From Halieaceae bacterium (GTDB lineage: Bacteria > Pseudomonadota > Gammaproteobacteria > Pseudomonadales > Halieaceae), in contig CACMGJ010000005.1 of assembly GCA_902613175.1 (NCBI GenBank), positions 1 to 64,000 of the forward strand: a stretch of DNA of 64,000 nt, written 5' to 3'. Position 1 is the stretch's first letter. The number at the start of each line of letters is the position of its first letter. Below are positions 31,774 to 62,836 of this stretch, piece after piece. The notes below the pieces were generated by a model, which saw nothing but the letters and a program-made list of their open reading frames with translations, had not been told where the DNA came from and searched no databases. The position numbers and the translations under genes were made by a program.

Positions 31774-33321
31774 ATGGTTTCCAGGTTATGGCGGTCGTCA
31801 CCCCATGGGCGACTGAATTTTAGTTGGATTTTCATTATTGCCTGTATTTGTGGTGCGCGGGCAGTCTCCGCATCGGGCGAGGCAACGCAAGACTCAGTAG
31901 TCCGACCCAACATTGTCATCTTGTATGCAGACGACATGGGATGGGGCGATACAGGTGCCTACGGCCATCCCTACATCAAAACCCCTTCGTTGGACCGACT
32001 CGCCAACGAGGGCCAGCGCTGGACCGACTTTTATGTGCCCGCTCCCGTGTGCTCGCCGAGCCGCGCTGCACTGCTCACGGGACGACATCCTGTCCGCTCG
32101 GGGCTCTATGGCGTGGGCAGTCCGGTGTTATTTCCGGACGACAAGTACGGTATCCCTGAGAGTGAAGTGACGCTTGCGGAGATGCTCAAGGACGCGGGTT
32201 ATCTCACCGCCATCATGGGAAAGTGGCACCTGGGTGATGCACCTGAACACTTTCCCACGCGCCATGGTTTCGATTACTGGTTTGGCATCCCCTACTCCAA
32301 CGACATGAAGTTCGAGGGAAGACCGGGTATCGAAGAACTGTTCATGATGCAACAGACCGGTAAGACGGAAGCGTTACACAAGATCCTGAATGACTTCCTG
32401 ATCGCCTTTGAGGACCCGGATTCATCAAACTACGACGTCCCTCTGTGGCGAAGTCGCTGTGACAAGGCTATCTGTGAGGACGAACTGTTAGAGCAACCCA
32501 CCTTTCAGCCAAACCTGACGACCCGTCTTACGCATGAGGCGACTCGATTCATAGAGGAAGTAAAAGAAGAGCCCTTCTTGCTCTACCTGCCCTATACCAT
32601 CCCCCACCTCCCCGTTTTTGTCGATGAGCCTTTTCAAGGACAGAGTTTGGCGGGGCCCTACGGTGACGCCATCGAAGAGATCGATTGGAGCGTGGGCGAA
32701 ATTATTAGTGCTCTAGAGAAAGCAACCATCGACGACAATACGCTCGTCTTCTTCTCAAGTGATAACGGACCCTGGCAATTAGCGAGTATTCATCTCGCGG
32801 GAAGCACAGGCCCCTTCAAAGGTTCCAAACAGGAAATTTACGAAGGCGGTGTTCGCGTCCCCGGTATCTTTTGGTGGCCCGGTACCATTGCACCCGAGGT
32901 CATCTCGGACATGGGCAGCGTACTTGATCTCTACCGAACCATTGCAGCTATCCTCGAGTTAGATACCCCTCAAACACTCGACAGCCACAACCTCACTCCC
33001 GCACTGGTCGAGGGCGATAAAGGTCCGCGAGAAGAAATCGCGTTCTACCGAAAGGGTGAGCTACGGGCCTATCGCAAAGGCGACTTCAAACTTCATCTAT
33101 TCGACCAACCACAAGGTGGCGAGCCGCTAGAAACACCTGAGCTCTACAACTTAAGACGTGATCTAGGCGAAAAGGACAACATCGCTGACAAACACCCAGA
33201 GATTGTGGCGGATATTTTAAGTGCCATCGCCATCCATAAAGCCAATCTGCCCCGCAAGCCGCCCTTATTTGATCAGCGCTTTGTCGACATGATGAACCGC
33301 GCTGCAGAGTCTGGACGATAA
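31774..33321 (+). CDS. Sulfatase (CSPSR type)
   Basis: PNIVILYADDMGWGDTGAYG; PVCSPSRAALLTGRHPVRSGLY; MGKWHLGD; FSSDNGPW. Confidence 0.95.
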   Translation: MVSRLWRSSPHGRLNFSWIFIIACICGARAVSASGEATQDSVVRPNIVILYADDMGWGDTGAYGHPYIKTPSLDRLANEGQRWTDFYVPAPVCSPSRAALLTGRHPVRSGLYGVGSPVLFPDDKYGIPESEVTLAEMLKDAGYLTAIMGKWHLGDAPEHFPTRHGFDYWFGIPYSNDMKFEGRPGIEELFMMQQTGKTEALHKILNDFLIAFEDPDSSNYDVPLWRSRCDKAICEDELLEQPTFQPNLTTRLTHEATRFIEEVKEEPFLLYLPYTIPHLPVFVDEPFQGQSLAGPYGDAIEEIDWSVGEIISALEKATIDDNTLVFFSSDNGPWQLASIHLAGSTGPFKGSKQEIYEGGVRVPGIFWWPGTIAPEVISDMGSVLDLYRTIAAILELDTPQTLDSHNLTPALVEGDKGPREEIAFYRKGELRAYRKGDFKLHLFDQPQGGEPLETPELYNLRRDLGEKDNIADKHPEIVADILSAIAIHKANLPRKPPLFDQRFVDMMNRAAESGR

Positions 33322-34796: not shown

Positions 34797-34873
<77 letters not shown>

Positions 34874-37379: not shown

Positions 37380-39849
37380 ATGTTCGCCTCACCCAGATTA
37401 AACTTTTTAAACCTTTTATCAATAGCGGTACTGATCGCATCGCACGGTTCCTTGGCTCAAGATCGTCAACTTGAAGAAGTGATCGTTACCAGCTCGCCAA
37501 TTAAGCAATCAGAGATGGCTTCGATTGAGGCAAAGCGCTTCGCTGTGAATGTTCTTGATGCCGTTTCTGCTGACACCATAGGACGTTTCCCAGACCAAAA
37601 CCTTGCAGACTCGTTGGCTCGAGTGCCTGGCGTCGCTATCGAACGAGACCAAGGACAAGCACGTTATGTAAATCTACGTGGCGCTCCGTTTAGGTACACC
37701 GCAATTGCGTTCAACGGCATCGATGTCCCGGGCGCGGAAAATGGTCGAATTCCTCGTTTTGACAGCTTTCCAGCGGTGATTACCCGCAGGCTCACGGTGA
37801 ACAAGGCCATAACGGCAGATATGCCAGGTGAAGCGGTCTCAGGATTCGTCAATATCGAGACCAATAGCCCCTTCGACAAAGAAGGTGCGTCTTTTGCGTT
37901 TGACGCGGGCCTCGGTGAGCAAGAGTTGGGGGGGGGGAGACGTCAATAAGCTCAGCTTACGCGGTTCTTTCTCTAACGATAACTTCGGCATTCTCGGTTT
38001 TTATTCCGAGAATAGTCGGGAGCAGGTTACGGACAATCGTGAGTACGATTTGGGCCTCGAGGGTTCAGCGTTAGTCGTTAACGAGCTTGATTACAGATCT
38101 TATTTCATCAAGCGCTCCGATGAGGCCTACGGGTTCAACGCTGAGTATCGTGGTACTGGTGCTGTGTCCCGAGTATTTTTGAACAGCGTGTATTCGGAGT
38201 TCACTGACGAGGAAGAGCGTAATCAGTACGTCTTCGAATTCCTTGCACCTACAGCAGGAGAGACGGGCAGTAACGCGCCGCTTCAGCTAACACGTGCGCT
38301 CGAGGATGGTATCTACGAAAACTCAACGTCTACTAACACCCTTGGTATTGAGTTTACTGCTGCAGAGTTTGACGTAGTTGCCTATTACACGTTCACGGAA
38401 ACGGAGTTCGTGCAGAACTTGCCGATTACCTATCAATTGGCGGGATTTGCCGGACTTACTGCAGATGGACCCGTGCCTTACTTCGGTGATTTTGACGTGA
38501 CCAATATCACCGACCCAATACTTACCCTGAGTGGGAACCCAGCTAACGCTATATTTTTGGCCAATTTCGGTATTGGCTTTTACAGCCCAATGGACCAGGA
38601 AGTCGATAAGTTTAAAGTAGATTTTAAGCGAGCGTTAATGGGCAAAAGCGAACTTAAGTTTGGCCTACAGTTAGACCAGAGAGAAGCCATCGGTGGCGCT
38701 AATACTGTCGCATTTGGAGGCTACCCAGAGGACTTGGCCCTGCGAGTAAATGACTTCGACACTGGCCGACCATGGGTGTCAAACACTACCAATTCCATTG
38801 GAGGCACTTACTTTGACAACCCTGGTTTGGATAGAGCTTGGCAGTCGTACGACATTTATCCTAGTGGTTCGGTTGACCCTGAAAATGCCGTGGCGATAGA
38901 CGAAGACATCCTTGCAGGTTATGTCAGTTACATGAAGTCGACTGATTGGGGCAACTACGTTGTGGGTGTTCGAGTAGAACAGACTGATGTGACCAATCAA
39001 GGAGTTGATGGGTTTGAGTATTCGACAGACTTTACGGATGTGCTACCCAATGCCCACATCAACTTTGATCTCTCGGACAATATGAAGCTTCGCCTCTCTG
39101 CTAGTTCTGGTGTCAACCGCCCTACGTACAACGAGTGGCGCGCTGCAGCAGGCATCGACGTTATTGAAAAGGAGATCTCAGGAGGTAACCCCTCGCTCGA
39201 ATCCGAAACTTCATTTGGATTTGACGCCTCGCTGGAGTACTACCTAGACAGCGGGTCGCTACTATCAGTCGCGGCGTTCACACGCAGTATCGATGATGTG
39301 ATCTACGCTGATTCCAGTACAGTGGATGCAGGAGCCTACATAGTCGAATACGCCGGTGAGCAGTGGGCATACACAGGATTTTTGAACGGTTCAGACGGCA
39401 CATTCTCGGGTGTTGAGTTGAACGCGGTCTACTTTGCGGACCAGATCGTGGAAGGGCTGGGTGTCAGTGTAAATATCACTTTGGCAGATGGCGAATTCAA
39501 GCGCGTCAATGGTGAGAAAGTAGGTTTACCCGGCACTTCAGATTCCATTTACAATGCCGTAGTTTTTTATGAGAACTTTGGTTTGTCCGCAAGAGTCAAC
39601 TATAGCTATCGTAACGAATGGATTTCTCCTATTGAAGATCCAGAGGAGTTTTGGGGCGAGATGGAGCGACTAGACGCCCAGATCTCCTACACGTTTCAAC
39701 GGCCTATCGCCGGTAGTGAAGTCAGTATTTACGCCAACTTCAACAACATTACGGACGAAACGGACGTGAGATTTGCTGGCAACGGTACTATTAATCAGTC
39801 AGAGAGCTATGGCTCGCATTACTTGGTGGGAATACGCGTAAACTACTAA
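37380..39849 (+). pseudogene. TonB-dependent receptor, split into two frames at a G10 tract
   Basis: 37380-37949 encodes signal, LEEVIVTSSPIKQ and plug (FPDQNLADSLARVPGVAIERDQGQARYVNLRG); 37828-39849 encodes the barrel ending YLVGIRVNY. Removing one G at 37928-37937 restores a single ORF. Confidence 0.9.
37928..37937 (+). repeat. G10 homopolymer inside TonB receptor
   Basis: gagttGGGGGGGGGGagacgtc; count supported by both ORF translations. Confidence 0.9.
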
Positions 39850-40986: not shown

Positions 40987-41031
40987 TTGACATGGTAGAG
41001 GTCGCCAGTTCGAATCTGGCTGGTCCTACCA
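40987..41031 (+). repeat. tRNA-Val 3'-half remnant R1 (putative attachment site)
   Basis: TTGACATGGTAGAGGTCGCCAGTTCGAATCTGGCTGGTCCTACCA, 45/45 identical to tRNA-Val; no 5' half. Confidence 0.97.
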
Positions 41032-41570
41032 AATTTTTAAGTCTCTATTTTTCCTCGATTTTATTTTTCGTTTTCACTGAGTCGTCGCGTGTTCTGGCGA
41101 GTTACCTCTACCTTAGAAAGGTAGTGATCGGGCAATTGCCTTGTAAAAGTAGTGATCTGCCCTGCCAGCGCCGTGTGAAGCCGTGAAGCTGCCAAAGTCG
41201 CTAGTAGTTAATCTGACTGGTCCGCGGTAATTTTCGACAGCCCCTTGATCAACTCTCTTTCAGTCCGTTGCCGGTCGTATGGTTTCAAGCCCTGTCAAGT
41301 CCGTGCTTCTGCTTTTGTCCGTCCGCACCCCAGGCACCAACCTTTGGGTCCAGAGAAATCACATATGTCTCGGCACGGACTCCGTTGCTTTTTCAACTAG
41401 ACCTCCAAACGATTTGGCCAAAAATAAATCGGCTATCGTGCCAGGCTCTGCAGCGCTTTATCGACACTCGACTCGAGTTGACGCAAACGGTTGAGTTTCT
41501 CAAGCAAGCGCTCCTCGAGATTTTTGAAATTCAAAGGCAGCTCTCTTTGGCAGATGGAGTAGCCTTCACC

Positions 41571-41700
41571 GATAAACTATTTTTGCACCTGCAGGTCGGT
41601 GACACGAGATCTGGCATATACAACGTCTTTGATGTTCGGCATGGGTTCCCTTATGTTTAACTTGCCAATTGACAAGCAACATATAACATTGCCTCGAATT
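41571..41700. repeat. Diverged copy of the VOC-gene 5' end plus VOC/tetR intergenic region
   Basis: Closely similar to 45161-45290. Minus-strand reading MPNIKDVVYARSRVTDLQVQK* (vs MPSIKDILYVRFRVTDLQAQKQ) hits TAG where the intact gene has CAG. Confidence 0.85.
41661..41676. promoter_or_regulatory. Palindrome, candidate TetR operator copy 2
   Basis: CTTGCCAATTGACAAG, 14/16 palindromic; identical to 45249-45264. Confidence 0.55.
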
Positions 41701-41726: not shown

Positions 41727-43208
41727 ATGCCACTGCTCAAACACTACTTAGCGATTTGTATCTTCTTTTTCCTCGGCAACACAGCGCTTACGGCGACTAC
41801 GGCCGACATCGTATCCGCGGACGGCGAAGCAATATCAATATCCAAACCCAATATGGTGATCCTCTTGGTTGACGATCTCGGCTGGGGTGACGTCGGCTAT
41901 CACAATGAAAATGTTGTTTCGCCTCATATTGATGGCATCGCTGCACAAGGTGTGGAGTTTGATCGATTCTACGTTAACCCTACCTGCTCACCCAGCCGAG
42001 CCTCGCTGCTGACAGGCCTATTCTCTACCACCCATGGCGTTAAAGGCCCTATACAAGCGCACTCTAGCGAGGGATTACCGCTGCAATGGCAAACGCTGCC
42101 TGAGTATCTCAAAGGCGTGGGCTATCAGACACACTTAGTTGGCAAATGGCATTTGGGCAACGCCAATACCGCCTACTGGCCTCAGCAGCGCGGCTTTGAC
42201 TCTTTTTACGGGCACCTCAACGGCGGCATAGGTTACTTCGACCATGTGTTCTCTGGCGGTCTGGATTGGCAAAAAAATGGTACGACCCTACGTGAGGAGG
42301 GCTACACCACAGACCTAATTAAAGACGCAGCCATCAATATCATTGAAGGCCGCACCGCAAGCGACGCCCCACTGTTCTTATTTGTCTCCTTCAATGCTAT
42401 CCACACGCCTGTTGAAGAACCCAAAGACGCCAGCGTCGAACATCAAGGACGTGCCACCCTGTTGCGTATGATCTCAGCCCTCGACAATGCGGTTGGAGAT
42501 GTTGTTGAAGCTATAATGAATCAGTCGTGGGGCAAGAATACGGTAATTTTGTTTGCCAGTGACAATGGTGGCTCCTCACCGAAGCCCTGGCTAGTCGAAC
42601 TACTCATTCCACCGATGCGCGATGGCTTTAGCGATAATGGTAGCCTTAAACAGGGTAAAGGATCTGTATTCGAGGGTGGTATCCGTGTCCCTGCTGCAAT
42701 TTGGTGGCCGGGTAAAATGGAGTCCAGCGAGCCGTTCTCTCAGGCTATTCACATTGCCGATGTGTTGCCAACGCTTACCGATATAGCGGGTCTTAGCATT
42801 AACAATGTGGATGGACGGAGCATCAAAGCCGCTCTTTTAGGCGAATCGCCCTTACCAGCAAAGCCTTTTGTTGTTGCTAATTTCGATAGCGAGGCCCTGA
42901 TAGATTGGCCCTGGAAGGTGGTCCGCGAAGGCTCACTGCCCGTTATGCCTGACTTTTTGAAGTCCGACACTTGGTATCTTCACAACATCGAAACAGATCC
43001 CCGTGAGCTAGAAGATTTAAAGGAACAATTTCCTCAGCGATTCTCACAAATGCGCGAAGCCTTGCTCGCAGTGCCGCGGAGCAAGCCGGTGGAATTCGCG
43101 ACGGATCAGCCTTGGGACACATTTGGGGGCGAGGAGACCCGTCCACCCTGGGCCGAGGCTGCTAGTCGGCGCAATGAGGGCTCAACAACCCAAAGCCCAG
43201 TTGAGTAA
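41727..43208 (+). CDS. Sulfatase (CSPSR type)
   Basis: PNMVILLVDDLGWGDVGYHN; PTCSPSRASLLTGLF; VGKWHLGNA; FASDNGGSS. Confidence 0.95.
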   Translation: MPLLKHYLAICIFFFLGNTALTATTADIVSADGEAISISKPNMVILLVDDLGWGDVGYHNENVVSPHIDGIAAQGVEFDRFYVNPTCSPSRASLLTGLFSTTHGVKGPIQAHSSEGLPLQWQTLPEYLKGVGYQTHLVGKWHLGNANTAYWPQQRGFDSFYGHLNGGIGYFDHVFSGGLDWQKNGTTLREEGYTTDLIKDAAINIIEGRTASDAPLFLFVSFNAIHTPVEEPKDASVEHQGRATLLRMISALDNAVGDVVEAIMNQSWGKNTVILFASDNGGSSPKPWLVELLIPPMRDGFSDNGSLKQGKGSVFEGGIRVPAAIWWPGKMESSEPFSQAIHIADVLPTLTDIAGLSINNVDGRSIKAALLGESPLPAKPFVVANFDSEALIDWPWKVVREGSLPVMPDFLKSDTWYLHNIETDPRELEDLKEQFPQRFSQMREALLAVPRSKPVEFATDQPWDTFGGEETRPPWAEAASRRNEGSTTQSPVE

Positions 43209-43246: not shown

Positions 43247-44248
43247 TTACTGAGGAATTTCCGAAGGCCATCGCTGCAGTTGTTTAAGACCCACAAGTTC
43301 CTTGGTCGCCTGAACGACAGCGGGATGTTCGTGCTCTAGACAGCCCTCGCGATAGCTTTGCCGCTGCTGCAGGGCGCTCCAGTAAGCATTTAGGACCGGC
43401 CGGTCCTTTACCAGCAGAGTTAGCCAGTCTCCCTCTCTCAGACGATCAAAAACCACCATCATGCCCACATCGGCAAGACTGAACTGTTGGCCGCAAATCC
43501 ACGGCCCTTGGCTGCTAACAAGTTGCTGCTCAAGATCATCCAGATGTGCGGTCATCGCCTCGGATGCTCGGTTAACGATATGGATTACGGGCTTCAAGGT
43601 CAGCGTTTTTGGCAATCCAACAAGTCTCATCATCAGAAAGAAGAACGCCCGCTGCTTAATACGATGAAACAACAGCCCCTCAAAAATGTTCAGCACCGGG
43701 ATCTTTGCCACCATGGAAGCAAAGATTGGGATAGTGAGACCGGGAACCGCGTTGCCGGCCGTGGCTTCTGGCGACTCGATTGGATCGTCGCCAATTAGGG
43801 AGGTTTTATGCACCCATGCATCCATCACTTGTCGTTGCTCTGTGCTGTCTGGCACCAACAGGCCGGTCACATCAACCGTGGCGGCAACATATTTTAGCTG
43901 CTCGTGTGATTCGTAAATTGGATGCCCGTTATGCAAGAGTACCGGTACAGTTGCTCCGGGGTTCACCTTGAGAAATTCCCGACTGATGTTCTGATAACTA
44001 CCGGTTTCAATGAGATCTATCGCAATACTGTCAAAAACCACGCCATACTCTGCTAAGCAGACGCGGATCTTCTTGGAGCATAGCGAAAACGGATTGTGAT
44101 AAAGCGTCCACTCAGCCTCAAAAGGCAGACTGATATCAGACTGCAAACCCGGAGGAACCACCCGGGTTTGTCGCATCGAGCGCTCTCGAAGCATCACAAC
44201 CATTGCCAACGTGATGCCGACGAAAATCAGACTAAGCAAGATAGTCAT
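43247..44248 (-). CDS. Glutathione S-transferase-like protein with N-terminal hydrophobic segment
   Basis: EWTLYHNPFSLCSKKIRVCLAEYGVVFDSIAIDL; NPGATVPVLLHNGHPIYES. Confidence 0.85.
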   Translation of the reverse strand: MTILLSLIFVGITLAMVVMLRERSMRQTRVVPPGLQSDISLPFEAEWTLYHNPFSLCSKKIRVCLAEYGVVFDSIAIDLIETGSYQNISREFLKVNPGATVPVLLHNGHPIYESHEQLKYVAATVDVTGLLVPDSTEQRQVMDAWVHKTSLIGDDPIESPEATAGNAVPGLTIPIFASMVAKIPVLNIFEGLLFHRIKQRAFFFLMMRLVGLPKTLTLKPVIHIVNRASEAMTAHLDDLEQQLVSSQGPWICGQQFSLADVGMMVVFDRLREGDWLTLLVKDRPVLNAYWSALQQRQSYREGCLEHEHPAVVQATKELVGLKQLQRWPSEIPQ

Positions 44249-44305: not shown

Positions 44306-45229
44306 TTATTGCCCTGGCATACCCTCTGGCCCCCAGTGAGTACCGAGCAAATCCGCAGGGCTGCGCTTATGCGAACCAAAGGACTCATTGAAGAGATCGC
44401 CATCGGTGAAATGCTCCAGCATAAAACCGTTTGGATCTTTCCAATAATCAAAGGTTTGGCTACCTAGTAAGTGCTTGCCCACACCGAAAGAATGCTGGTG
44501 ACCCGCTTTTTTCAGCTCATAGTGACCCCGCATAAGTACATCCCAATTGGCCACTTCAAAAGCGGCATGATTGAAGTCTGCATGCCCCGCGTCAATGAAA
44601 AATAGCGTGTGGTGGTCAACGAATTCTTCCCCTCGGTTGCAGCGCGTGAACGCTCCCAGGGTGTGCTCTTCGCCTTCCTTTTCCATGACAATTTCATCGG
44701 AAATTAGCAACCCCAGACGGCATTGATACCACTCAAAGGTTTCCTGAAAGTTGTTCACCATCAGCACCACGTGACCAAGACGCTTGATCGAACACTCAGG
44801 GTCTGCGAAAGCAACCCGTTCGCCCAAGCGCTGCTTCTCATTACCACTGTTGAGGCCTGAGCGTCCGGCCACGGTAAGCGACGGCGCAGCCGAGATATTG
44901 GCCACCACATCTACAGCGAAACCGTTGGGGTCGGTAAGACGAGCAATCAGCCCGCCTCCCTCCAGCGGATTAGTCTCTACCGGCACTTGGTCGATGGCAG
45001 CGATTTCCCGCAACGCATCTGCCGACTCTGCAGCAAAGCCGACACAAACAAAACCGGGCTCTACAGCCTCTTGAGCAAGATAGATATATGGGGTTTCATC
45101 GGTACCCCGAGCCATCAACAGATCGCCGTCTATTTTCGTTTGGAAGCCAAAATCCTCCAAAAACTGTTTTTGCGCCTGTAGGTCGGTGACACGAAATCTG
45201 ACATATAGAATGTCTTTGATGCTCGGCAT
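44306..45229 (-). CDS. VOC-family protein, two-domain type I extradiol dioxygenase-like
   Basis: VRFRVTDLQAQKQFLEDFGF; candidate metal ligands H-H-E in LGHVVLMV, NHAAFEV and GFMLEHFTDGD. Confidence 0.85.
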   Translation of the reverse strand: MPSIKDILYVRFRVTDLQAQKQFLEDFGFQTKIDGDLLMARGTDETPYIYLAQEAVEPGFVCVGFAAESADALREIAAIDQVPVETNPLEGGGLIARLTDPNGFAVDVVANISAAPSLTVAGRSGLNSGNEKQRLGERVAFADPECSIKRLGHVVLMVNNFQETFEWYQCRLGLLISDEIVMEKEGEEHTLGAFTRCNRGEEFVDHHTLFFIDAGHADFNHAAFEVANWDVLMRGHYELKKAGHQHSFGVGKHLLGSQTFDYWKDPNGFMLEHFTDGDLFNESFGSHKRSPADLLGTHWGPEGMPGQ

Positions 45230-45248
45230 GGGCTACCTTATTGTTTAA

Positions 45249-45264
45249 CTTGCCAATTGACAAG
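45249..45264. promoter_or_regulatory. Palindrome between divergent VOC gene and tetR, candidate TetR operator
   Basis: CTTGCCAATTGACAAG, repeated at 41661-41676. Confidence 0.6.
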
Positions 45265-45313
45265 TAATATATAAAATAGCCAAATACTATACAAGTTCAT
45301 TCTAGGGACCCAT

Positions 45314-45970
45314 GTGAATTCGGCCCGGCGCGCGCCCACAGCCAACTGCGTAAACAAACTTCGCGATGCCCAGACTACGAAAAAAAAGCTGGTGCATGCG
45401 GCCCTTCTCGCATTCTCCACTAGAGGCTACGATGCCGCTTCAACGCGAAGTATAGAGACCGCCGCAGGCGTTAAGCGGGGCTTAATCAATCATCACTATG
45501 GCTCTAAACAGGCGCTCTGGCAGGCTGCTGCAGACCATATGATGTCGATTACCGAGCAGGATCTTGGCGGAGCGTTAGAGAACATTAAGCAGATAGACGA
45601 CCACTTAAAACTGCGTTTTTTTGTGCACGCCTACGTTACCTTTTGCGCCAAACATCCGGAGCTCAACCGCTTGATGATTCAAGAAGGCATGGACAACAAC
45701 TGGCGTTTGCAGTGGTTGTTGGAGCGATCAGTAAGACCGTGGTATCGCCAAGTATGTTGCGTATTTAATCGAGCTAAGGACCTCGGCGCTGCGCCGAAAA
45801 TGGATGCGCATCATTTTTATTACATTCTAACGGGAGCGGCGACGCTGGTGTTCTCTAACGCTTCTGAAGCCGAGGCATTGTCTGGCCAAAACCCGTTAGA
45901 CCCGCAAAGGATCGAGGCCCACGCGGATGCAGTCGCCAATTTATTTACCCCGTCAGAGAAACCACTATGA
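45314..45970 (+). CDS. TetR/AcrR-family transcriptional regulator
   Basis: TKKKLVHAALLAFSTRGYDAASTRSIETAAGVKRGLINHHYGSKQALWQAAADH. Confidence 0.9.
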   Translation: MNSARRAPTANCVNKLRDAQTTKKKLVHAALLAFSTRGYDAASTRSIETAAGVKRGLINHHYGSKQALWQAAADHMMSITEQDLGGALENIKQIDDHLKLRFFVHAYVTFCAKHPELNRLMIQEGMDNNWRLQWLLERSVRPWYRQVCCVFNRAKDLGAAPKMDAHHFYYILTGAATLVFSNASEAEALSGQNPLDPQRIEAHADAVANLFTPSEKPL

Positions 45971-46842
45971 AGCTGATTACATTTACCGAATCTTCACGAA
46001 CCCGAATTGGACTGCTACAGGGCGAGCAAATCGTCGATTTATCTCAGGCAGCCCCGGCGTTGCCTGACGATATGCTGACCCTGCTTGAAGTAGGCGATAC
46101 AGCCCTGCAGGAAGCCGCAAAGCACGTTGATGCCGCAACACACTTTGCTGCTGTTGACGTAGTAATCGAAGCCCCCATGCGAAGACCGCCAAAGATTCTT
46201 GCCATCGGCCTGAATTACCAGGCTCACGCCAAAGAAAGCAATTTGGACATCCCAAAATATCCAGTGGTCTTCACCAAGCAGGCGACCTCGGCCAACGGAC
46301 CGTACGCACCGATTCACTCGCCTCAAGAAACCAAGATGCTGGATTACGAGGGTGAGCTAGGCATGGTTATCGGCAAACGGTGCCGGCGAGTTAGCAAGGC
46401 TGACGCCAGCAAAGTCATCGCAGGCTTCTGCGTGTTGAACGATGTCAGCGTTCGCGAATGGCAGTTTCTCTCAACTCCACCACAGTTCACTATGGGTAAA
46501 TCTTGGGATACGCATAACCCGTTCGGGCCGGCCATCGTCACCGCAGATGAAGTTGACCCTCATCACCTCATGCTCAGAACCTTCGTCAACGGTGAGCTGC
46601 GGCAAGAGACCAATACCGACGACTTAATATTTAACTGTTACGACATTATTGAGTTTTTGAGCACCGCATTCACCCTGGAACCCGGCGATCTAATTGCTAC
46701 TGGCACACCAAGCGGCGTGGGAGCAGCTATGCAGCCACAAGCGACGCTGCAAATCGGCGATACAGTGAAAGTCGAAATTGAGGGTCTGGGTTTTATTGAG
46801 AACGAGGTGATTGTGGAACCAGATACCGCCTCTATTCAATGA
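45967..46842 (+). CDS. Fumarylacetoacetate hydrolase family protein
   Basis: ILAIGLNYQAHAKE; DYEGELGMVIGKRCRRV; GDLIATGTPSGVG; ATGA overlap with tetR. Confidence 0.95.
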   Translation: MKLITFTESSRTRIGLLQGEQIVDLSQAAPALPDDMLTLLEVGDTALQEAAKHVDAATHFAAVDVVIEAPMRRPPKILAIGLNYQAHAKESNLDIPKYPVVFTKQATSANGPYAPIHSPQETKMLDYEGELGMVIGKRCRRVSKADASKVIAGFCVLNDVSVREWQFLSTPPQFTMGKSWDTHNPFGPAIVTADEVDPHHLMLRTFVNGELRQETNTDDLIFNCYDIIEFLSTAFTLEPGDLIATGTPSGVGAAMQPQATLQIGDTVKVEIEGLGFIENEVIVEPDTASIQ

Positions 46843-48437
46843 CCACAGAAGCGCACAACGGCTTGAGCCGTCCATTTGATGTTGCCATCGTCGGCTTAGG
46901 ACCGGTGGGATGCTTGGCGGCCATTTTATTCGCCGACGCAGGCCTTACGGTTGTTGCGGTCGAGAAAGAAGCACAAGTATATACCCTGCCGAGAGCGGTT
47001 AATTTAGATGGCGAAATCATCCGCGCGTTGCAGCCATTAGGGTTAGCAGAAACGGTTAATCAAATGATGCAGCCCATTCGCGCCAACGAACGGGCGGGCT
47101 TCGCGAACTCTAAACGGGAGTGGTTGTTCGGCGGCAATGCTGTGGCTTTAGGCAGCAGTGGCTGGCAGTCTGCCAATATGTTTGACCAGCCAGAACTGGA
47201 GACCTTCCTGCGCACCCAAGCAATGTCTCATGCCAATGTCTCTCACTATGTAGGCTATGAAGTTACCGAGTTTTTCAACAGTCCAACCCAGGTCACACTT
47301 AATGCCTCAAGCATCGACAAAAGCGTTTCACTGACTGCCAAATATCTCGTTGCCTGCGATGGGGCAAACAGTCCAACGCGCAAAGCACTGGGTGTTGGAT
47401 TGCGGGACCTTGGCTATGATCAAGATTGGCTGGTTGTCGATGTGGAAATGCTGAAACCACACAATCTGCCCAATGAGGTGCTGCAGGTCTGTGATCCTGA
47501 CCGAATTCACACCTATGTCGCCACCAAGGACCCTTACCGCCGTTGGGAGTTCCAGCTAAACCCAGGTGAAAGCGCGGAACAGATGCTCGAGACTGACACC
47601 ATACATGCGCTTTTAGATAGCTGGACACCGCGTGACACCTACAAACTTCGTCGCACTACCGTGTATCAATTTCACGCGGCTATCGCCGATATTTGGCAGC
47701 AGGGGCGCGTCTTTCTCGCTGGCGACGCCGCCCATCAAACGCCACCCTTCTTGGGGCAAGGCATGAATTCAGGCATGCGCGACGTGATCAATTTGGCCTG
47801 GAAGCTGCCCCTAGTGCTGAAGGGCGTGTGCAAACAATCACTGCTTGATACCTACCAAACAGAACGTGATGCCCATGCTCACGATCTGGTGTCTTGGGCA
47901 GTAGACATGGGCCACCTAATGCAGCACCTGGCGACAACCGAGGCGGCCGAGCGCGTCGGCGAAGCACCCCCAGAAATGCAGCAAACATCGCGCTCGTCTG
48001 GCTATGGCCAAGGCAGAGAGCAGCCGCCCATTCGTTCAGGGGTCGTGCTTGTTGAGCAGGTTTCTAACCGGGGCGCGACAGGTTACTCGCTAGCCCAACC
48101 GGTGGTTCGTGATACGACAGGCGAAGAGCAACGGTTCGACGAACTCCTGGGCACACAGGCGGGCTTGATTACACAGGGCTCAGTTGCCTTGAACGAAAAC
48201 AGCAGGGCTTTAGTCGAGGCATTGAGCATCAAAGTTATTGATCTTGACGAGATTGAACTGCTGCAAGGTAAATATCCTGCAGAATTAACCAGTGGTGAAA
48301 CGGTACTTCTGAGGCCAGACAGACTAGTGTTTGGGCATACAGAACCAGAGGTGTCGGCAGATCAGTTAGTTAGCTCATTCGCAACGGCGATTGGGCTCGA
48401 TCTGACCAAGATATTGCGCCATAAGTATCAAGCATGA
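46839..48437 (+). CDS. FAD-dependent aromatic monooxygenase (MhpA-like)
   Basis: DVAIVGLGPVGCLAAILFADAGLTVVAVEK; VFLAGDAAHQTPPFLGQGMNSGMRDVINLAWKL; overlaps FAH gene. Confidence 0.9.
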   Translation: MTTEAHNGLSRPFDVAIVGLGPVGCLAAILFADAGLTVVAVEKEAQVYTLPRAVNLDGEIIRALQPLGLAETVNQMMQPIRANERAGFANSKREWLFGGNAVALGSSGWQSANMFDQPELETFLRTQAMSHANVSHYVGYEVTEFFNSPTQVTLNASSIDKSVSLTAKYLVACDGANSPTRKALGVGLRDLGYDQDWLVVDVEMLKPHNLPNEVLQVCDPDRIHTYVATKDPYRRWEFQLNPGESAEQMLETDTIHALLDSWTPRDTYKLRRTTVYQFHAAIADIWQQGRVFLAGDAAHQTPPFLGQGMNSGMRDVINLAWKLPLVLKGVCKQSLLDTYQTERDAHAHDLVSWAVDMGHLMQHLATTEAAERVGEAPPEMQQTSRSSGYGQGREQPPIRSGVVLVEQVSNRGATGYSLAQPVVRDTTGEEQRFDELLGTQAGLITQGSVALNENSRALVEALSIKVIDLDEIELLQGKYPAELTSGETVLLRPDRLVFGHTEPEVSADQLVSSFATAIGLDLTKILRHKYQA

Positions 48438-48509
48438 GTGGTAACGATTAAGGCTATAGAGCAGCTTTCGATGCTAGTCTGCGCGATGTTCTGACGAGTT
48501 CTGTGAGCC

Positions 48510-48554
48510 TTGGCATGGTAGAGGTCGCCAGTTCGAATCTGGCTGGTCCTACCA
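48510..48554 (+). repeat. tRNA-Val 3'-half remnant R2
   Basis: TTGGCATGGTAGAGGTCGCCAGTTCGAATCTGGCTGGTCCTACCA, 44/45 identical. Confidence 0.97.
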
Positions 48555-51754: not shown

Positions 51755-51799
51755 ATGAAATGGTAGAGATCATCAATTCGAATCTGGCTGGTCCTGCCA
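51755..51799 (+). repeat. tRNA-Val 3'-half remnant R3 (degenerate)
   Basis: ATGAAATGGTAGAGATCATCAATTCGAATCTGGCTGGTCCTGCCA, 38/45 identical. Confidence 0.92.
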
Positions 51800-53899: not shown

Positions 53900-53927
53900 T
53901 TGACATGGTAGAGGTCGCCAGTTCGAA
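53900..53927 (+). repeat. tRNA-Val remnant R4 (truncated)
   Basis: TTGACATGGTAGAGGTCGCCAGTTCGAA, 28/28 identical, then identity stops within the T-loop. Confidence 0.93.
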
Positions 53928-53976: not shown

Positions 53977-55479
53977 CTAAGGACATCCTTTGTGAGAAAA
54001 GCCTTTTCGCTGACAGACCGCCATCTCAGTTTGAACACCTTGGTCATTTTGTTCACGCATCCACTTATGTAAATGAGTCTGCATTCGCTCCAGCTCGTTT
54101 GTCTGCGTGGCATTAAGTTGTCCCACTAAATTATGTAATTCGAACGGATCTCGCTCTAGGTCATAAAACTCACGCTTTGGTCTTTTTAGATAATTTAAAT
54201 AACGGTCGCTACCCGCTTCCACCTCATCTGCCAGCTCCTGCTGAAACCAGGTACTCGCCGTTGTGAAGCTTGAAAACTGGGTCTCAGGACGGAGATTTTC
54301 AATCAGTTTATAACGCTCTGTGCGTACCCATCTGATCGGGTAAGGGACGCCATTATGGATGTTTTTACTCGTCTGAATGCCGACGGCAAACTCTTTATGG
54401 GTATCGCCAGTCCCGCTTAGCAGCGATGAAAAACTACGACCGTCTAAATCCGTTGGGACTTCATTGACGGATAGCTCCATAAGCGTCGGAAGCAGATCGA
54501 CTGACTCCACGATCGCTGAAGAAATACCTGGACTTATCTTATTGGGCCACCGAACAACCAAAGCCACCCTCACACCCGCGTCGTAGCCGGTCCATTTTGC
54601 AAAGGGCAGATCGCTTCCGTGCTCGGATGAAAATACGAAAATGGTGTTGTCGGTCAATCCTCTCTTATCAAGCTCCTCATCAATCAAACCCACCTCTCTA
54701 TCTAGCTCGGAAACCTCTGCCAAATAAGAAGATAATTTGGCTCTTAATTCAGGCGAATCATGTAGATACGGTGGCACCGTAATACTGGCTGGAGGGTGGT
54801 TTTTCGCGTTACCACGATTCCATGGGATATGCGGGTTACTTGACGCCACAACGAGCACAAAAGGTGTTTGTCCAATACCGTCCAAGAACGCCCTAGTTTT
54901 TGCAATACCAAAGGTGGTCTCGCCGGCGGGGCCTTTGTTTTCACCTCCTGCTTTTGTAAACGAAAATACGTGGCGGGGATACACGTGAGATTTGCCAGCC
55001 AGTGCCACCGCATACCCGTGTTCTGAAAAGTAACTGACGATGCTCTTTGTATCCTCGTAAACACGTGAATGGTTTCCATAACCGCCGCTTCGAACAGGGT
55101 ACAACCCCGTATAAATTTGATGTCGTGCCACTGAACACATCGCTGTGGCGGTAAAGGCACGTTCAAAAACGACGCCTTCACTTGCCAACTGATCGATATT
55201 CGGAGTGTTATTCGCACCCATTAATGAGCTCGTCAGCCTCTGATAGACACCCACGTCGTGCCAAGCCATGTCATCAGCAAGAAAAATGACGATGTTTGGC
55301 TGCGATTGGTCCTGACGGCTCCCCAGAACAGCCGGGGGCTGTTCAGACAAAGTGGTTTCACGGGGCACTGACTCGCTCAAGTCAGTTATCGATTGCAAAC
55401 AACCTAGGAGCTTGGCGCACGCCGCAAAAAGCAATAAATGAAGTACTCTACTTTTACTCAGTCTCATTATTTTTGGCAC
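53977..55479 (-). CDS. Sulfatase with non-canonical CSVAR motif
   Basis: PNIVIFLADDMAWHDVGVYQ; TATAMCSVARHQIYTGLYPVRSGGYGNHSRV; AGKSHVYP. Confidence 0.9.
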   Translation of the reverse strand: MPKIMRLSKSRVLHLLLFAACAKLLGCLQSITDLSESVPRETTLSEQPPAVLGSRQDQSQPNIVIFLADDMAWHDVGVYQRLTSSLMGANNTPNIDQLASEGVVFERAFTATAMCSVARHQIYTGLYPVRSGGYGNHSRVYEDTKSIVSYFSEHGYAVALAGKSHVYPRHVFSFTKAGGENKGPAGETTFGIAKTRAFLDGIGQTPFVLVVASSNPHIPWNRGNAKNHPPASITVPPYLHDSPELRAKLSSYLAEVSELDREVGLIDEELDKRGLTDNTIFVFSSEHGSDLPFAKWTGYDAGVRVALVVRWPNKISPGISSAIVESVDLLPTLMELSVNEVPTDLDGRSFSSLLSGTGDTHKEFAVGIQTSKNIHNGVPYPIRWVRTERYKLIENLRPETQFSSFTTASTWFQQELADEVEAGSDRYLNYLKRPKREFYDLERDPFELHNLVGQLNATQTNELERMQTHLHKWMREQNDQGVQTEMAVCQRKGFSHKGCP

Positions 55480-55564
55480 CCATGCTTGGGTCTATTAGCA
55501 GGTATCGTTACTGAATGAGCGCTTTTCGAACGCGTTTTAGCTAACTTCAGGGTGCTTTGCATGT

Positions 55565-56980
55565 CTACGAACCGTGCCAATGCTTAAAGCGCAACGCCTC
55601 AAGCGAGTCCAAAACAGGTGCCAGCTTTTTATTATCCGCAAGATTAAGCGTTGGCAGTAATTCGGTACGATGGTCATAGAGTTCTCTGGACACTATTTTA
55701 CCTGAAGGCACTGAAACCCAAGCGGTATAGCGATATCGATCATCTCTTACCGACTGCCCCTGCAACTTAACCCCAGACACCCAGCGCGTAATTTCGGAAT
55801 AAGCTGCCTTTTTTGCCACATCCGTTTGACCCAATGTGACGCCCTTAAATGAAGTACCCTCGAGATGACTGGGAAGCTCTATCCCTGCAAGGTCGAGGAC
55901 CGTTGGGTAGATATCCACCGTTTCGATAATAGCGAGGCTACGCGAACTCTGGGGTATCAGTCTCGGTGAAACCATGAACAATGGAATTTTTAGATCGACC
56001 TCATGTGTAGTGTGTTTTGACCAGGCTCCGTATTCACCCAACTTGTAACCATGGTCACTCCACAACACAATCAGCGTATCGTCAGACAACCCCGTCTCGT
56101 CTAACGTTTGCATTAGATCTCCTATTAAGGTGTCCACATAAGTAATCGAGGCCGCATAAGCACGACGCAGGCGTCGGGTCTGAGCTGGCGTCATAGGGCC
56201 GGGTTTCTTCGGCAAGTCATCGTAGTTCCAAATTTCGTAAGCGACTACAGACCACGGCGGTGCGCCTTCAGGCGATTTTTGTAATGCCTGCGAGATAGAC
56301 CTCTTTTGAGGCGTTGCGTCCCATGCAGATTGTGGGACTCTAAACGGCAAGTGGGGCTTGTGTGTCCCCACAGCCATGAAGAAAGGTGTTTTGCTTGAAG
56401 ATAGCGATACAAGTGCCGCACGCGCCTGGTCGATATTAAGACGATCAGGCAGCCCTTGATCTGACGCCACAATATCGATCACAGGATTAGGTTGGCCGGG
56501 CTCCTTTCGCCGCATTCGCATAGCGGGCTCGTGATCAATTGGGGGTTGGCTCCAGCCCTCAAGGTCATCATCAAGATGATGGTAAACCTTACCAAAGGCA
56601 AGCGTCTTATAACCCGCATTTTTAAATGTTTTGTTAAGTGTCGGTAAGTCGGGAACCCACTCAGACACTGGCTGGTCGAGGCGTCTGATCCCGGTGGTTT
56701 TCGGTCTGAGTCCAGTGAGTAGCGATGCTCGGGACGGGGCACAAATCGCCTGATGTGCGTAGGCTCTGTCGAACACAATGCCGCGCTGAGCCAAGTCGTC
56801 GATATTAGACGTATTAGCCTGCGAATCTCCGTAGATGCCTAGATCGGCTCTAAGGTCATCAACAATAATCAGCAAAATATTCTGTTTATCCGACGCTACA
56901 ACATCGTCCGCCTGTGCAACCGCATGGACTGTCGAAAGAACCACAACACTGCCGATTATTAGCTTTCCTGGAGAGAACAT
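55565..56980 (-). CDS. Sulfatase (CAPSR; iduronate-2-sulfatase-like)
   Basis: QNILLIIVDDLRADLGIYG; AICAPSRASLLTGLRPKTTGI; GTHKPHLPF; LWSDHGYKLGEYGAWSKHTTHE. Confidence 0.95.
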   Translation of the reverse strand: MFSPGKLIIGSVVVLSTVHAVAQADDVVASDKQNILLIIVDDLRADLGIYGDSQANTSNIDDLAQRGIVFDRAYAHQAICAPSRASLLTGLRPKTTGIRRLDQPVSEWVPDLPTLNKTFKNAGYKTLAFGKVYHHLDDDLEGWSQPPIDHEPAMRMRRKEPGQPNPVIDIVASDQGLPDRLNIDQARAALVSLSSSKTPFFMAVGTHKPHLPFRVPQSAWDATPQKRSISQALQKSPEGAPPWSVVAYEIWNYDDLPKKPGPMTPAQTRRLRRAYAASITYVDTLIGDLMQTLDETGLSDDTLIVLWSDHGYKLGEYGAWSKHTTHEVDLKIPLFMVSPRLIPQSSRSLAIIETVDIYPTVLDLAGIELPSHLEGTSFKGVTLGQTDVAKKAAYSEITRWVSGVKLQGQSVRDDRYRYTAWVSVPSGKIVSRELYDHRTELLPTLNLADNKKLAPVLDSLEALRFKHWHGS

Positions 56981-57070
56981 ATGAAAACCCTTTAGAGAAT
57001 CCCTTGATTGACAGGCGTTAACGTATATCCGCGCATAATAAGCTGAGTCACAGCGGCCAATTTGACCGCA

Positions 57071-59380
57071 TCACTTCGGCATAACCCGCAGTGTGACCAT
57101 TTCAAGTTCAGGACTCCGGGAAGATCCACCAACCATGATGCTGAAGTCACCAGGTTCGACCTGCCACGACATATCGATACCGTAGTAACCAAGCGCCTCA
57201 GACGTAATGTCAAAGTGAATCACTTGCGCCTCACCCGGCGCCAGTGAAACGCGCTGGAATCCCTTGAGCTCCTTCACTGGTCGCGTTACAGCGGAAAAAT
57301 TGTCGCGAACATAAAGTTGCACAACCTCATCGCCAGGCAGTTCACCTACGTTCTTCACCACCACAGAAAGTCGTGTCGACTCGTCCACTGACACCGTTGA
57401 AGACGATAACTTAGCATCCGAGTAGGCGAAGTCCGTGTAGCTCAAGCCGTCACCAAACTCATACAGATTGTGACTAGGCGCATCAACATATTTACGAACC
57501 CTAGCCGTAGGTTTGTGGTTGTAAAAGGCTTTCAGATGACCTGTTGAGTAAGGCACCGTAATGGGCATTTTGCCACTGGGGTTGACGTGTCCAAAAAGTA
57601 TTTCAGCAAGCGCCCTACCGCCCAATGCACCGGGCTCCCAGGCTTCGAGCAGTGCAGACACGTTTTCAGCAATCCAAGGTTCTGCTAGTGGCCTACCGTT
57701 AATCAAAACCACAACCGTAGGCACACCTGTGGCATGAATTGCCTGCACTAGGGCTAGTTGCTGTCCGAATAGACCAATTGAACTTCGAGCAACGTTCTCG
57801 CCCGACGTTTTCTCTTTGCGCTCGTATCGTAGGGGGTTGCCTCCCACGACCACAACTGCCACATCGGCCAATTCAGCCCGCTTTGCTGCAGTCGCAATCA
57901 TGTCCGGCTCAATATTTTTTACGGTACCCTCAACGTCAAAATAATCAATCTCTGCAATGTTGCTACCAACTTCTCTCAAGCCTTCAATAATCGTCGTAAT
58001 GTTTTCCTCGGGTTGCCGCAACACCCAGTCGCCCATCAGCGAGTGATTGCTAGCGTTGGGGCCCGTGACAAAGACGCGTGCACCCGCAGAGAGAGGCAAG
58101 GTATTGGCATCATTTTTCAACAACACTATGCCCTGTCTTGCCAGTTGCAGCGCGGTTTGCTGGTGTTCTTTATTGAACATGACGGTTTTTACGTCGGATA
58201 GGTCGACCTGTGCGCTCTCAAATAAACCGAGTCGGAACTTGGCGAGCAATATTGGTCTTACCGCAGCGTCAATTCTTGCCTCACTGATTCTGTGATTAGT
58301 GACCAGTTGACGCAACGGATCAAAAAACTTTGGACCATGCATGTGCATATCGATACCGGCACTAACACTCTGGTACACCGCCTCCTTAAAATTTTCCGCA
58401 GTACGGTGATAGGTGTGTAAGCGCTCGACATCCATCCAGTCACTTACAACAAAGCCCCGAAAGTCCCATTCGTCACGCAAGACCTCTGAGAGTAAAAAAT
58501 GGTTGGCATGCGCCGGTACGCCGTTCACCTCATTATGCGCAGCCATTACCGAAAAAACGCCCGCGTTGATAGCACGCTCAAAAGGCGGGAAGTGATCCTC
58601 ACGAAGCGAGCGGATCGATAGGTCCATTGGCGACAAGTTCAGTCCATTACTTGGATCACCGCCTGCGATAAAGTGCTTAGCTGTAGCTAGCACCTGACCC
58701 TCTTCATCGAAATTTCCCTGCTGCAGACCCTCAATGACGGCGACGCCCATTTCGGCCACCAGAAAGTCATCTTCCCCGAAAGTCTCGCCCACCCGCCCCC
58801 AGCGCGGATCTCTCGCGATATCAATATTCGGTGTAAACGTCCATTGGGCACCATTTACCCTAACCTCTCGCGCAGTCTCCACAGACGACTGTCTGACTAA
58901 ATCCAGATTCCAGCTACTGGCCATGGTGATGGGTGAGGGGTAAATAGTGGCGCCCCTAACCAAACCGTTACCGTGTATAGCATCGATGCCAATCAATAAT
59001 GGAATGCCCAGACGACTCTCACTCGCGTAACGCTGTAAGAGGTTTGCTTCCTCAGGGTCGGTGACATGTAAAAAAGAACCTATTCTGCCGGCTCTTATGA
59101 CGTCCGGGATTTGTGAGGAGTGCAGGCTGGGGTACATGCCAAACGCGTCACTGGCTTTCATCTCTTCCAGAGTCAAATTTTTCTCGGAACGGGCAATGTG
59201 CTTTGGTCCTACATATTGAGACATCTGCCCGATCTTTTCGGCCAGCGTCATTCTACTAAGCAAGTCCTCAAGTCGCGCCTCGTCGCTTAAATCGGCGTTT
59301 TTATAAGCCGGCATCGGTGATCCTAGTGCCGGATTTATCAGCGTACTGATCAGAAACAGTAGCGGGGCATATCGCTTCAT
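57071..59380 (-). CDS. Glycoside hydrolase family 3 (beta-glucosidase-like), secreted
   Basis: IPLLIGIDAIHGNGLVRGATIYPSPI; HFIAGGDPSNG; GFVVSDWMDVERL; fibronectin-III-like C-terminus; signal MKRYAPLLFLISTLINPALG. Confidence 0.95.
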   Translation of the reverse strand: MKRYAPLLFLISTLINPALGSPMPAYKNADLSDEARLEDLLSRMTLAEKIGQMSQYVGPKHIARSEKNLTLEEMKASDAFGMYPSLHSSQIPDVIRAGRIGSFLHVTDPEEANLLQRYASESRLGIPLLIGIDAIHGNGLVRGATIYPSPITMASSWNLDLVRQSSVETAREVRVNGAQWTFTPNIDIARDPRWGRVGETFGEDDFLVAEMGVAVIEGLQQGNFDEEGQVLATAKHFIAGGDPSNGLNLSPMDLSIRSLREDHFPPFERAINAGVFSVMAAHNEVNGVPAHANHFLLSEVLRDEWDFRGFVVSDWMDVERLHTYHRTAENFKEAVYQSVSAGIDMHMHGPKFFDPLRQLVTNHRISEARIDAAVRPILLAKFRLGLFESAQVDLSDVKTVMFNKEHQQTALQLARQGIVLLKNDANTLPLSAGARVFVTGPNASNHSLMGDWVLRQPEENITTIIEGLREVGSNIAEIDYFDVEGTVKNIEPDMIATAAKRAELADVAVVVVGGNPLRYERKEKTSGENVARSSIGLFGQQLALVQAIHATGVPTVVVLINGRPLAEPWIAENVSALLEAWEPGALGGRALAEILFGHVNPSGKMPITVPYSTGHLKAFYNHKPTARVRKYVDAPSHNLYEFGDGLSYTDFAYSDAKLSSSTVSVDESTRLSVVVKNVGELPGDEVVQLYVRDNFSAVTRPVKELKGFQRVSLAPGEAQVIHFDITSEALGYYGIDMSWQVEPGDFSIMVGGSSRSPELEMVTLRVMPK

Positions 59381-59590
59381 GTAGTGTTGTTCTCCAGTCG
59401 CGAGTTGCACTATGTTCATTTGGTTTAACACACAGTGATGGCGCCTCCTCCACGAATGCCAACTCGAGATTGGCATCCGTTTAGCATCTGCTCTAAGGCC
59501 ATAACCTGACTTCCGCCAGACCGAAACTGGCCAACACCGACTGACTAATGACACGCCCGAAGCACACGCAACGACCGTCTGCAGCCCAAA

Positions 59591-61279
59591 TTAATTAAGC
59601 TGTGGTTCCTCCACCTCTGCCGCTTTCTTCTGAGCCTTTACACGTCTATGGTCGGGAACAAAAAAGTTGGTTAGTCCCGGATCGCTATCTTTCTTTAGCC
59701 ACCGATCTGGAAACTCAGCAGCTTTGGATCGATCACGCTCCCTAAAGACCGCGCCGCTACTAAACTTCTCTGTGTAAGGTACGACGTGTTGCCCTTGGTT
59801 GTTCACCAGTCGCTTAAAGAGCTGTTGCCGCATGGCTGCAACTATGGGTAGATACTTTGGGTCTCCGATAAGATTATTCATCTCTTTGGGGTCATTCTTG
59901 ATATCGTAGAGCTCTTCCGTATCCCAAATGCCATGGTATTGAATGAGCTTGTAGTCGTCGGTTCTCAGTGCGAATGTTGTGGGGGTGCTGGGAAAATTGA
60001 ACTCCCAGTAGTATTCGTACAAAAGCTCTTTCCGCCAGTCTGACACTGACATGCCACGCGCCAATGGAAGCAGGCTTTGACCTTCAAACTGGACCGGCGA
60101 CTTCAAGCCGGCAATATCAAGCATGGTCGGTGCGATATCCAGATTGGCGACTATTTCATCCACCTTATGGTTCTCTGGCAGCAGGCTGGGGCCCCAGGCA
60201 ACAAGAGGTACGCGCATAGACTCTTCGTAGGCATTTCGCTTGTCTATCAGGCCATGCTCGCCAAACAAAAAGCCATTGTCGCCCATCAACATAACAATCG
60301 TATTTTCCGCGTAACCATTTTCCGCTAACCAGGCTAGTAGCCGACCGATGCTGTCATCAACAGCCGACATGGCCCGGTGGTATTCCATCTTGTATGCCTG
60401 TACGTCCAGTGAACTGTGGTAGGGAAAGTCCACGCCATGCCAGCTATTACGCTGATTTTTCACCCACATGGGTTTTCCATGGTAATTCTCATCCGTATCA
60501 GCTTGACTGGCCGGAATCGGAATCTCGCGGTCAGCGTACTGCTCGGCATGCCGCTCTGCTGGGGAAAAGTTGGCGTGGACGGCTTTGTGTGACACATAGA
60601 GAAAGAACGGATTATCGGATGGCCGTTCCGACAAATAATCTAGCGCATAATCGGTGAGCTCATCAGTGATATAACCCTTTTGTGGGACGTGCTCACCATT
60701 AATGTTCAGTTGATTCACGAGACCATTACGCAGTTGTGTCGGATAGTAATGTCCCTGCCCCGCGAAACTAACCCAGTGGTCGAAACCTGGCTGAGGATCG
60801 TCCAAGCTCCTCGATGCCGATGCCGCCTCGCCCATGTGCCATTTACCGACGAATGCCGTGTCATAGCCGGCCGCTTGCAAGTATTGAGGAAAGAAAACGC
60901 TGTTAGGATTGGGGGGGGCGTTGTTGTCTACGACCCCATGGTTGTGCATATATTGCCCGGTCAGTATCGTCGCCCTGCTTGGCGAGCACAAAGCCGTAGT
61001 CACAAACGCATTTTTAAAATGCACACCTTCTCGTGCCAGGCGATCTATATTAGGGGTGTCTATGATCGGATTCATAAACCCCATCTCATCGAAGCGCTGG
61101 TCATCGGTCAGAATAAATATGACGTTCAGTTGCTGGCTTAACTCAGTGGTGGTCTGCCATTGCACATCGAGTATCTTAGATGTTGCGTCCCCCGCCCGGA
61201 GTGGCACTACGCTGAATATACATAAACACATGGCAATTAATTGAAGGGCAAGAATGCGTTCACGTTTAATCTTCTTCAC
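59591..61279 (-). CDS. Sulfatase (CSPSR type)
   Basis: NVIFILTDDQRFDEMGFMN; TALCSPSRATILTGQYMHNHGVVDN; FVGKWHMGE; GDNGFLFGEHGLIDKRNAYEESMRVP. Confidence 0.95.
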   Translation of the reverse strand: MKKIKRERILALQLIAMCLCIFSVVPLRAGDATSKILDVQWQTTTELSQQLNVIFILTDDQRFDEMGFMNPIIDTPNIDRLAREGVHFKNAFVTTALCSPSRATILTGQYMHNHGVVDNNAPPNPNSVFFPQYLQAAGYDTAFVGKWHMGEAASASRSLDDPQPGFDHWVSFAGQGHYYPTQLRNGLVNQLNINGEHVPQKGYITDELTDYALDYLSERPSDNPFFLYVSHKAVHANFSPAERHAEQYADREIPIPASQADTDENYHGKPMWVKNQRNSWHGVDFPYHSSLDVQAYKMEYHRAMSAVDDSIGRLLAWLAENGYAENTIVMLMGDNGFLFGEHGLIDKRNAYEESMRVPLVAWGPSLLPENHKVDEIVANLDIAPTMLDIAGLKSPVQFEGQSLLPLARGMSVSDWRKELLYEYYWEFNFPSTPTTFALRTDDYKLIQYHGIWDTEELYDIKNDPKEMNNLIGDPKYLPIVAAMRQQLFKRLVNNQGQHVVPYTEKFSSGAVFRERDRSKAAEFPDRWLKKDSDPGLTNFFVPDHRRVKAQKKAAEVEEPQLN

Positions 61280-61335
61280 TGCGTTACTCCTTATTGATGC
61301 ACCTCGGCATCTTGAACCCGTTGACCCTCAGATCG

Positions 61336-62832: not shown

Positions 62833-62836
62833 GACC

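Follow-up and report, generated by a model that had tools for sequence, protein, structure and literature searches.

Known systems

Aromatic catabolic clusters of the meta-cleavage (Mhp/Hpa-like) type are known. The locus described here resembles them in having an MhpA-subfamily FAD hydroxylase, a VOC extradiol-type dioxygenase, a FAH-family hydrolase and a candidate GST-like isomerase, but differs in that a secreted-type S1 sulfatase is attached. It is also known that regulons can expand when a regulatory region is duplicated or transferred, as in horizontal regulatory transfer or promoter capture. (The term is used in PMC5890482.) Here too an existing promoter-operator segment seems to have been moved before a gene so as to rewire it. 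However, unlike the general case, the event is a duplication within one cluster that carries a coding relic along, it has apparently taken place twice, in parallel, before one and the same gene, and that gene was a pathway neighbour beforehand. Duplication of a regulatory region that rewires a neighbour is a known kind of event; what is of interest is that it seems to have been repeated in parallel at one gene.

KstR and KstR2 (PMC3068626) and BkaR (PMC3920632) are examples of local TetR-family repressors that control neighbouring catabolic genes. The present locus shares with them a TetR gene, a nearby operator and adjacent catabolic genes, all putative in this case, though here there is a second putative operator within the cluster, from a recent duplication. 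Literature searches for sulfated phenolics and for the catabolism of aromatics by marine bacteria found nothing directly relevant and no description of the cluster.

The sulfatase cluster and its predicted products

The window, the whole stretch of 64,000 nucleotides analysed (G000:C5:1-64000), comes from an assembly of 1.9 Mb that is 58.6% complete. The cluster and its borders are:

40987-41031, plus strand: tRNA-Val(GAC) 3′-end repeat, left border of the cassette
41727-43208, plus strand: S1-type sulfatase (Pfam; CSPSR motif), the gene on which the copied operator would act
43247-44248, minus strand: GST-like protein, best NCBIfam match maleylacetoacetate isomerase, below cut-off
44306-45229, minus strand: VOC-family extradiol-type dioxygenase, its H-H-E positions aligning with catechol 2,3-dioxygenase
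45314-45970, plus strand: TetR-family regulator (TetR_N HTH domain, Pfam)
45967-46842, plus strand: fumarylacetoacetate-hydrolase-family (FAH) protein (Pfam/NCBIfam)
46839-48437, plus strand: FAD monooxygenase (FMO), MhpA-like subfamily
48508-48554, plus strand: tRNA-Val(GAC) 3′-end repeat, right border of the cassette

The sulfatase matches PF00884 with 163 bits and has the C-x-P-x-R motif as CSPSR. Its best PDB matches are carrageenan and GalNAc-4-sulfatases and its arylsulfatase equivalog score is far below cut-off; the best solved relatives thus being sugar sulfatases, an aryl substrate is no more than a possibility. The VOC protein has H, H and E at the iron-ligand columns in alignment with catechol 2,3-dioxygenase 1mpy and reaches no equivalog cut-off in NCBIfam. 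The regulator matches PF00440 with 44.9 bits (cut-off 24) and none of the NCBIfam TetR equivalogs at cut-off, while the monooxygenase matches NF004829 with 463.9 bits (cut-off 390). Together the products suggest a pathway that would begin with desulfation and go on through hydroxylation, extradiol cleavage and isomerisation to hydrolysis.

The copied control region

The region between the divergent VOC and tetR genes recurs upstream of the sulfatase:

41032-41432, strand not assigned: downstream flank of an unrelated gene, reaching the tRNA-Val 3′-end repeat (homology comparison)
41433-41571, minus strand: 3′ end of the unrelated gene, fused to the VOC relic (relatives G018, G042 and G029)
41574-41694, plus strand: duplicated copy of the VOC/tetR control region (alignment; control-region tree)
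41577-41642, minus strand: relic of VOC codons 1-21, then in-frame TAG; in G054 the start codon is additionally lost
41661-41676, plus strand: copied putative TetR operator CTTGCCAATTGACAAG before the sulfatase (site search, cross-cluster comparison)
41662-41689, plus strand: sigma-70-like promoter TTGCCA-N16-TAACAT toward the sulfatase, its −35 in the operator (promoter scan, comparison)
45249-45264, plus strand: original putative TetR operator in the VOC-tetR gap (palindrome conserved across clusters)
45250-45277, plus strand: promoter TTGCCA-N16-TAAAAT toward tetR-FAH-FMO (promoter scan, comparison)

An earlier note on this DNA had proposed that a diverged copy of the control region stands here, and its coordinates hold: 41574-41694 is 87.6% identical to 45161-45281 across 121 nt by both BLAST and MAFFT. 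Chance resemblance is ruled out by a BLAST E value of 1e-36 and by the presence of the copy in the sister species G054. Similarity is gone by about 41706, ahead of the sulfatase ATG at 41727, and BLAST gives no support to a MAFFT alignment that extended it into the tetR and sulfatase starts. On its minus strand the copy reads MPNIKDVVYARSRVTDLQVQK and then TAG, which are the 21 VOC codons and in-frame stop noted before; it further contains the VOC upstream region and the 16-bp palindrome, which is indeed the same in both places, CTTGCCAATTGACAAG, but imperfect by one mismatched pair. The tetR-proximal end faces the sulfatase, as had been said, and what was duplicated is, to judge from its letters, the whole operator-promoter module, oriented to the sulfatase as to tetR.

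The left side of the segment is of other origin. Positions 41433-41571 (minus strand) encode the last ~45 codons of another, unrelated gene, which in G018, G042 and G029 is clustered with ABC-transporter-like, CobW-like and WD40-like genes (identities read from the gene sequences). Homology to the downstream flank of that gene runs as far as the tRNA-Val repeat at 40987-41031, and the same flank-to-repeat arrangement is present in G029 (L045 5643-6198). With a gene tail and its flank to the left of the VOC relic, the copy is an illegitimate fusion and not a clean tandem duplication; the duplication claimed earlier is real, but the segment is chimeric, with operator and promoter joined to the 3′ end of the unrelated gene. 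This structure, and the position of the cassette between tRNA-Val 3′-end repeats, favour the main alternative to regulatory rewiring, namely that a neutral rearrangement in a recombination-prone tRNA-Val array left the copy as a scar, its operator undecayed through youth and the sulfatase not regulated by it.

A candidate operator with an embedded promoter

In all 15 clusters compared, down to 53% TetR identity, the palindrome is found between VOC and tetR, which makes it very probably the operator of the TetR encoded beside it. All 12 clusters found with the TetR in GTDB genomes have a palindrome of this class in the gap, embedded in a near-invariant 30-bp core, TTTAACTTGCCAATYGACAAGYAATATATAAA, and the class extends to clusters whose TetR is 62% (CTTGTCAACTGACAAG) and 53% (CTTGCCAATCGACAAG) identical. 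The comparison of palindrome conservation proposed earlier as a check gave a CTTG-N8-CAAG-class site in 15 of 15 clusters (TetR identity 53–100%), though in L055 one half has CTAG; the L091 cluster, whose TetR is 50% identical, has a different, spaced inverted repeat. A search of 13 whole genomes placed exact-class sites at these clusters and nowhere else (0.26 expected by chance), and so gave none of the further sites that a wider regulon would have. In the whole G000 assembly, at its 58.6% completeness, these two sites are the only ones within one mismatch. This conservation, with exact-class sites in the 13 genomes confined to the clusters, constitutes phylogenetic-footprinting evidence for a TetR operator. 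A match in G125, AACTTGTTAAACGACAAGCAA, was dropped as a regulon site because the sequence it lies in is unrelated and cluster genes are missing from its neighbourhood.

A sigma-70-like promoter resembling TTGYCA-N16-TAAAAT is present in 13 originals and in three sulfatase copies, and its −35 lies within the operator in every one compared. The −10 in originals is TAAAAT, TAAAGT or TATAGT; in the sulfatase copies it is TAAAAT in G054, TATAGT in MED824 and, having drifted, TAACAT in G000. A scan of the plus strand of the region picks out exactly 45250-45277 and 41662-41689, with a total count no higher than in shuffled sequence.

It is most improbable that the promoter is the only useful part of the captured piece, with the sulfatase essentially constitutive or otherwise regulated and the operator a passive passenger. 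The piece does have a complete sigma-70-like promoter, and the former promoter region of the sulfatase, which in L049 and L050 faces a divergent GFA-like gene, is absent here. However, since operator and −35 overlap, a TetR that represses tetR would also act on this promoter, and in MED824 the operator, with a variant core matching that of its original, has outlasted the relic.

The sulfatase in related clusters

The order SULF> <GST <VOC TetR> FAH> FMO> is found in 8 of the 12 clusters that the TetR search of GTDB genomes recovered (among relatives in the same genus, GTDB titles give an uncultured Luminiphilus, G033 = L051, and a Halieaceae, G029 = L056). Within the sequence stretches examined there is no sulfatase match in L048, L054 and L058, and the sulfatase of L055, placed on the VOC side downstream of GST, is a different one (40% identical). 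VOC is accompanied by a sulfatase orthologue in G054, G033, G029, G001, G017 and G018; the last-named three have a more distant SULF-VOC-FAH-FMO arrangement in a single direction, operon-like and without a TetR match. In the outgroup clusters L091, L109 and L110 no sulfatase was seen within the stretch examined. Being present in the clusters of most relatives and not seen in those outgroup stretches, the sulfatase is probably a later but recurrent partner of the ring-cleavage cluster. In the G033 cluster the FAH (L023 7061-7933) is only 49% identical to that of the window, its neighbours being ~70% identical, and gene replacement within that cluster is the explanation that these values indicate.

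The earlier proposal that the sulfatase was brought under the TetR has to be amended in that no stranger was recruited; in most relatives it is already a cluster neighbour or operon partner. Across lineages it is in an operon, under an unrelated promoter of its own, or absent. No operator or palindrome precedes it in L049, L050, L051, L053, L056 and L057, and with most orthologous clusters lacking one there, co-regulation is not obligatory.

A sister species and a probable second capture

Over the cassette G000 and G054 share 95.7% identity, and both have the control-region copy, the VOC relic of G054 being without its ATG too. In MED824 (L052), known from one MAG, CTTGTCAAACGACAAG is immediately upstream of the sulfatase, next to a VOC relic that shuffling shows to be genuine (22 of 29 nt in register, p<5e-5). 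The core AAACG is common to both MED824 operators and occurs in no other cluster operator compared, the other originals having AATTG or AATCG. In the control-region tree the copies fall with the originals of their own lineage (UFB 100/88 and 85): those of G000 and G054 form a pair beside the pair of their originals, and the MED824 copy is beside the MED824 original. From this grouping the module was probably captured before the sulfatase twice independently; a single ancestral duplication for G000/G054 and MED824 is disfavoured on the same grounds, although gene conversion may have made copies and originals alike after one older event. That two lineages were wired in parallel, each separately copying the operator-promoter with a VOC relic before the same sulfatase, is a proposition for which we would give even odds.

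The argument from decay of the coding part and exact retention of the palindrome is true of the window as described, but it does not exceed chance there. With 15 differences in 121 columns, the probability of no change in the 16 operator columns is 0.10, and the longest identical run, 23, has p=0.49, so conservation in the window pair was discarded as proof of selection. The unchanged operator of G000/G054 is likewise not significant (p=0.10–0.17) because the copy is too young; an intact 16-mer at 12% divergence is also what a neutral scar could display. In the MED824 lineage the argument does reach significance: the operator has 1 change in 16 (15/16 kept) and the relic 38 in 86 (56% identity; Fisher p=0.0027), while operator plus promoter have 3 changes in 32 (Fisher p=0.0002 against the relic). 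That the site before the sulfatase may be in use is best supported by this retention together with the shared AAACG core. Against a neutral scar there is, then, the same module in the same orientation before the same gene in MED824, operator and promoter preserved and the relic not, and also the retention of the promoter consensus upstream of the sulfatase ATG in both species. We regard a scar without regulatory effect as unlikely.

Proposed mechanism

We consider it a good deal more probable that duplication of the operator-promoter rewired the sulfatase to TetR control, so that it is co-regulated with the cluster. Put forward in the earlier note, this proposal has good support from the comparison (15 clusters, the promoter and MED824), with three corrections, and is unproven. 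Duplication, its sharing with G054, the footprinting, the promoter geometry and the apparently independent capture in MED824 are shown; TetR binding, repression, the inducer and the pathway are inferred. The TetR encoded at 45314 would bind CTTGYCAAWYGRCAAG, overlapping the promoter −35, and repress the promoter as long as no pathway compound is there. A segment with the operator-promoter and the first VOC codons would have been duplicated and recombined before the sulfatase, replacing its former promoter, and through this replacement the sulfatase would now be repressed and induced jointly with VOC-GST and tetR-FAH-FMO. The enzyme may desulfate an aromatic ester, the product of which hydroxylase, extradiol dioxygenase, isomerase and hydrolase would then degrade.

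The locus offers what may be a two-fold natural example of a gene joining a regulon via a copied operator and promoter without itself being moved, with donor, copy, sister species, independent replicate and unwired relatives all visible. In abundant marine Halieaceae, whose sulfatases are usually read as polysaccharide enzymes only, it points to an aromatic catabolic cluster with a sulfatase as its first enzyme. Parallel capture suggests that desulfation and aromatic ring cleavage need to be switched on jointly; if the parallel wiring is true, it would imply strong selection for their co-induction, and also that planktonic marine Gammaproteobacteria have a pathway for sulfated phenolics.

The tRNA-Val repeats and the rest of the window

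The cassette lies in what is, by its repeats, a tycheposon-like array: a tRNA-Val GAC gene (34797-34873) is followed by direct repeats of its own 3′ end at 40987-41031, 48508-48554, 51760-51795 and 53900-53927. These separate an alkaline phosphatase/TonB receptor cassette, the sulfatase cluster and glycosyltransferase/TPR-like cassettes. Of the tyrosine recombinase expected beside the tRNA in such elements there is no sign at the tRNA-Val of the window, next to which no integrase was found, but G006, G036 and G045 have one of ~300 aa beside the tRNA-Val or a repeat of it. Such repeats recur in many species of the genus, up to five per contig. In G045 (L095 5117-5252, 8293-8427 and 10529-10663) they are broken into two pieces, bases 33-60 and bases 59-77, ~90 bp apart, a structure that may show where in the attachment site the recombination core lies. 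The cassette is repeat-bounded both in G033 (L023/L051) and G029 (L024/L056) and in the window and G054 (L022), but its orientation to the tRNA in the first pair is opposite to that in the second, which suggests separate insertions or an inversion.

A TonB-receptor-like gene is in two overlapping frames (37380-37949 and 37828-39849), probably through a frameshift, real or of assembly. Several further sulfatases and a beta-glucosidase-like gene are present at 53977-63970 and 31774-33321, and the right end of the window looks like a region for utilisation of sulfated polysaccharide.
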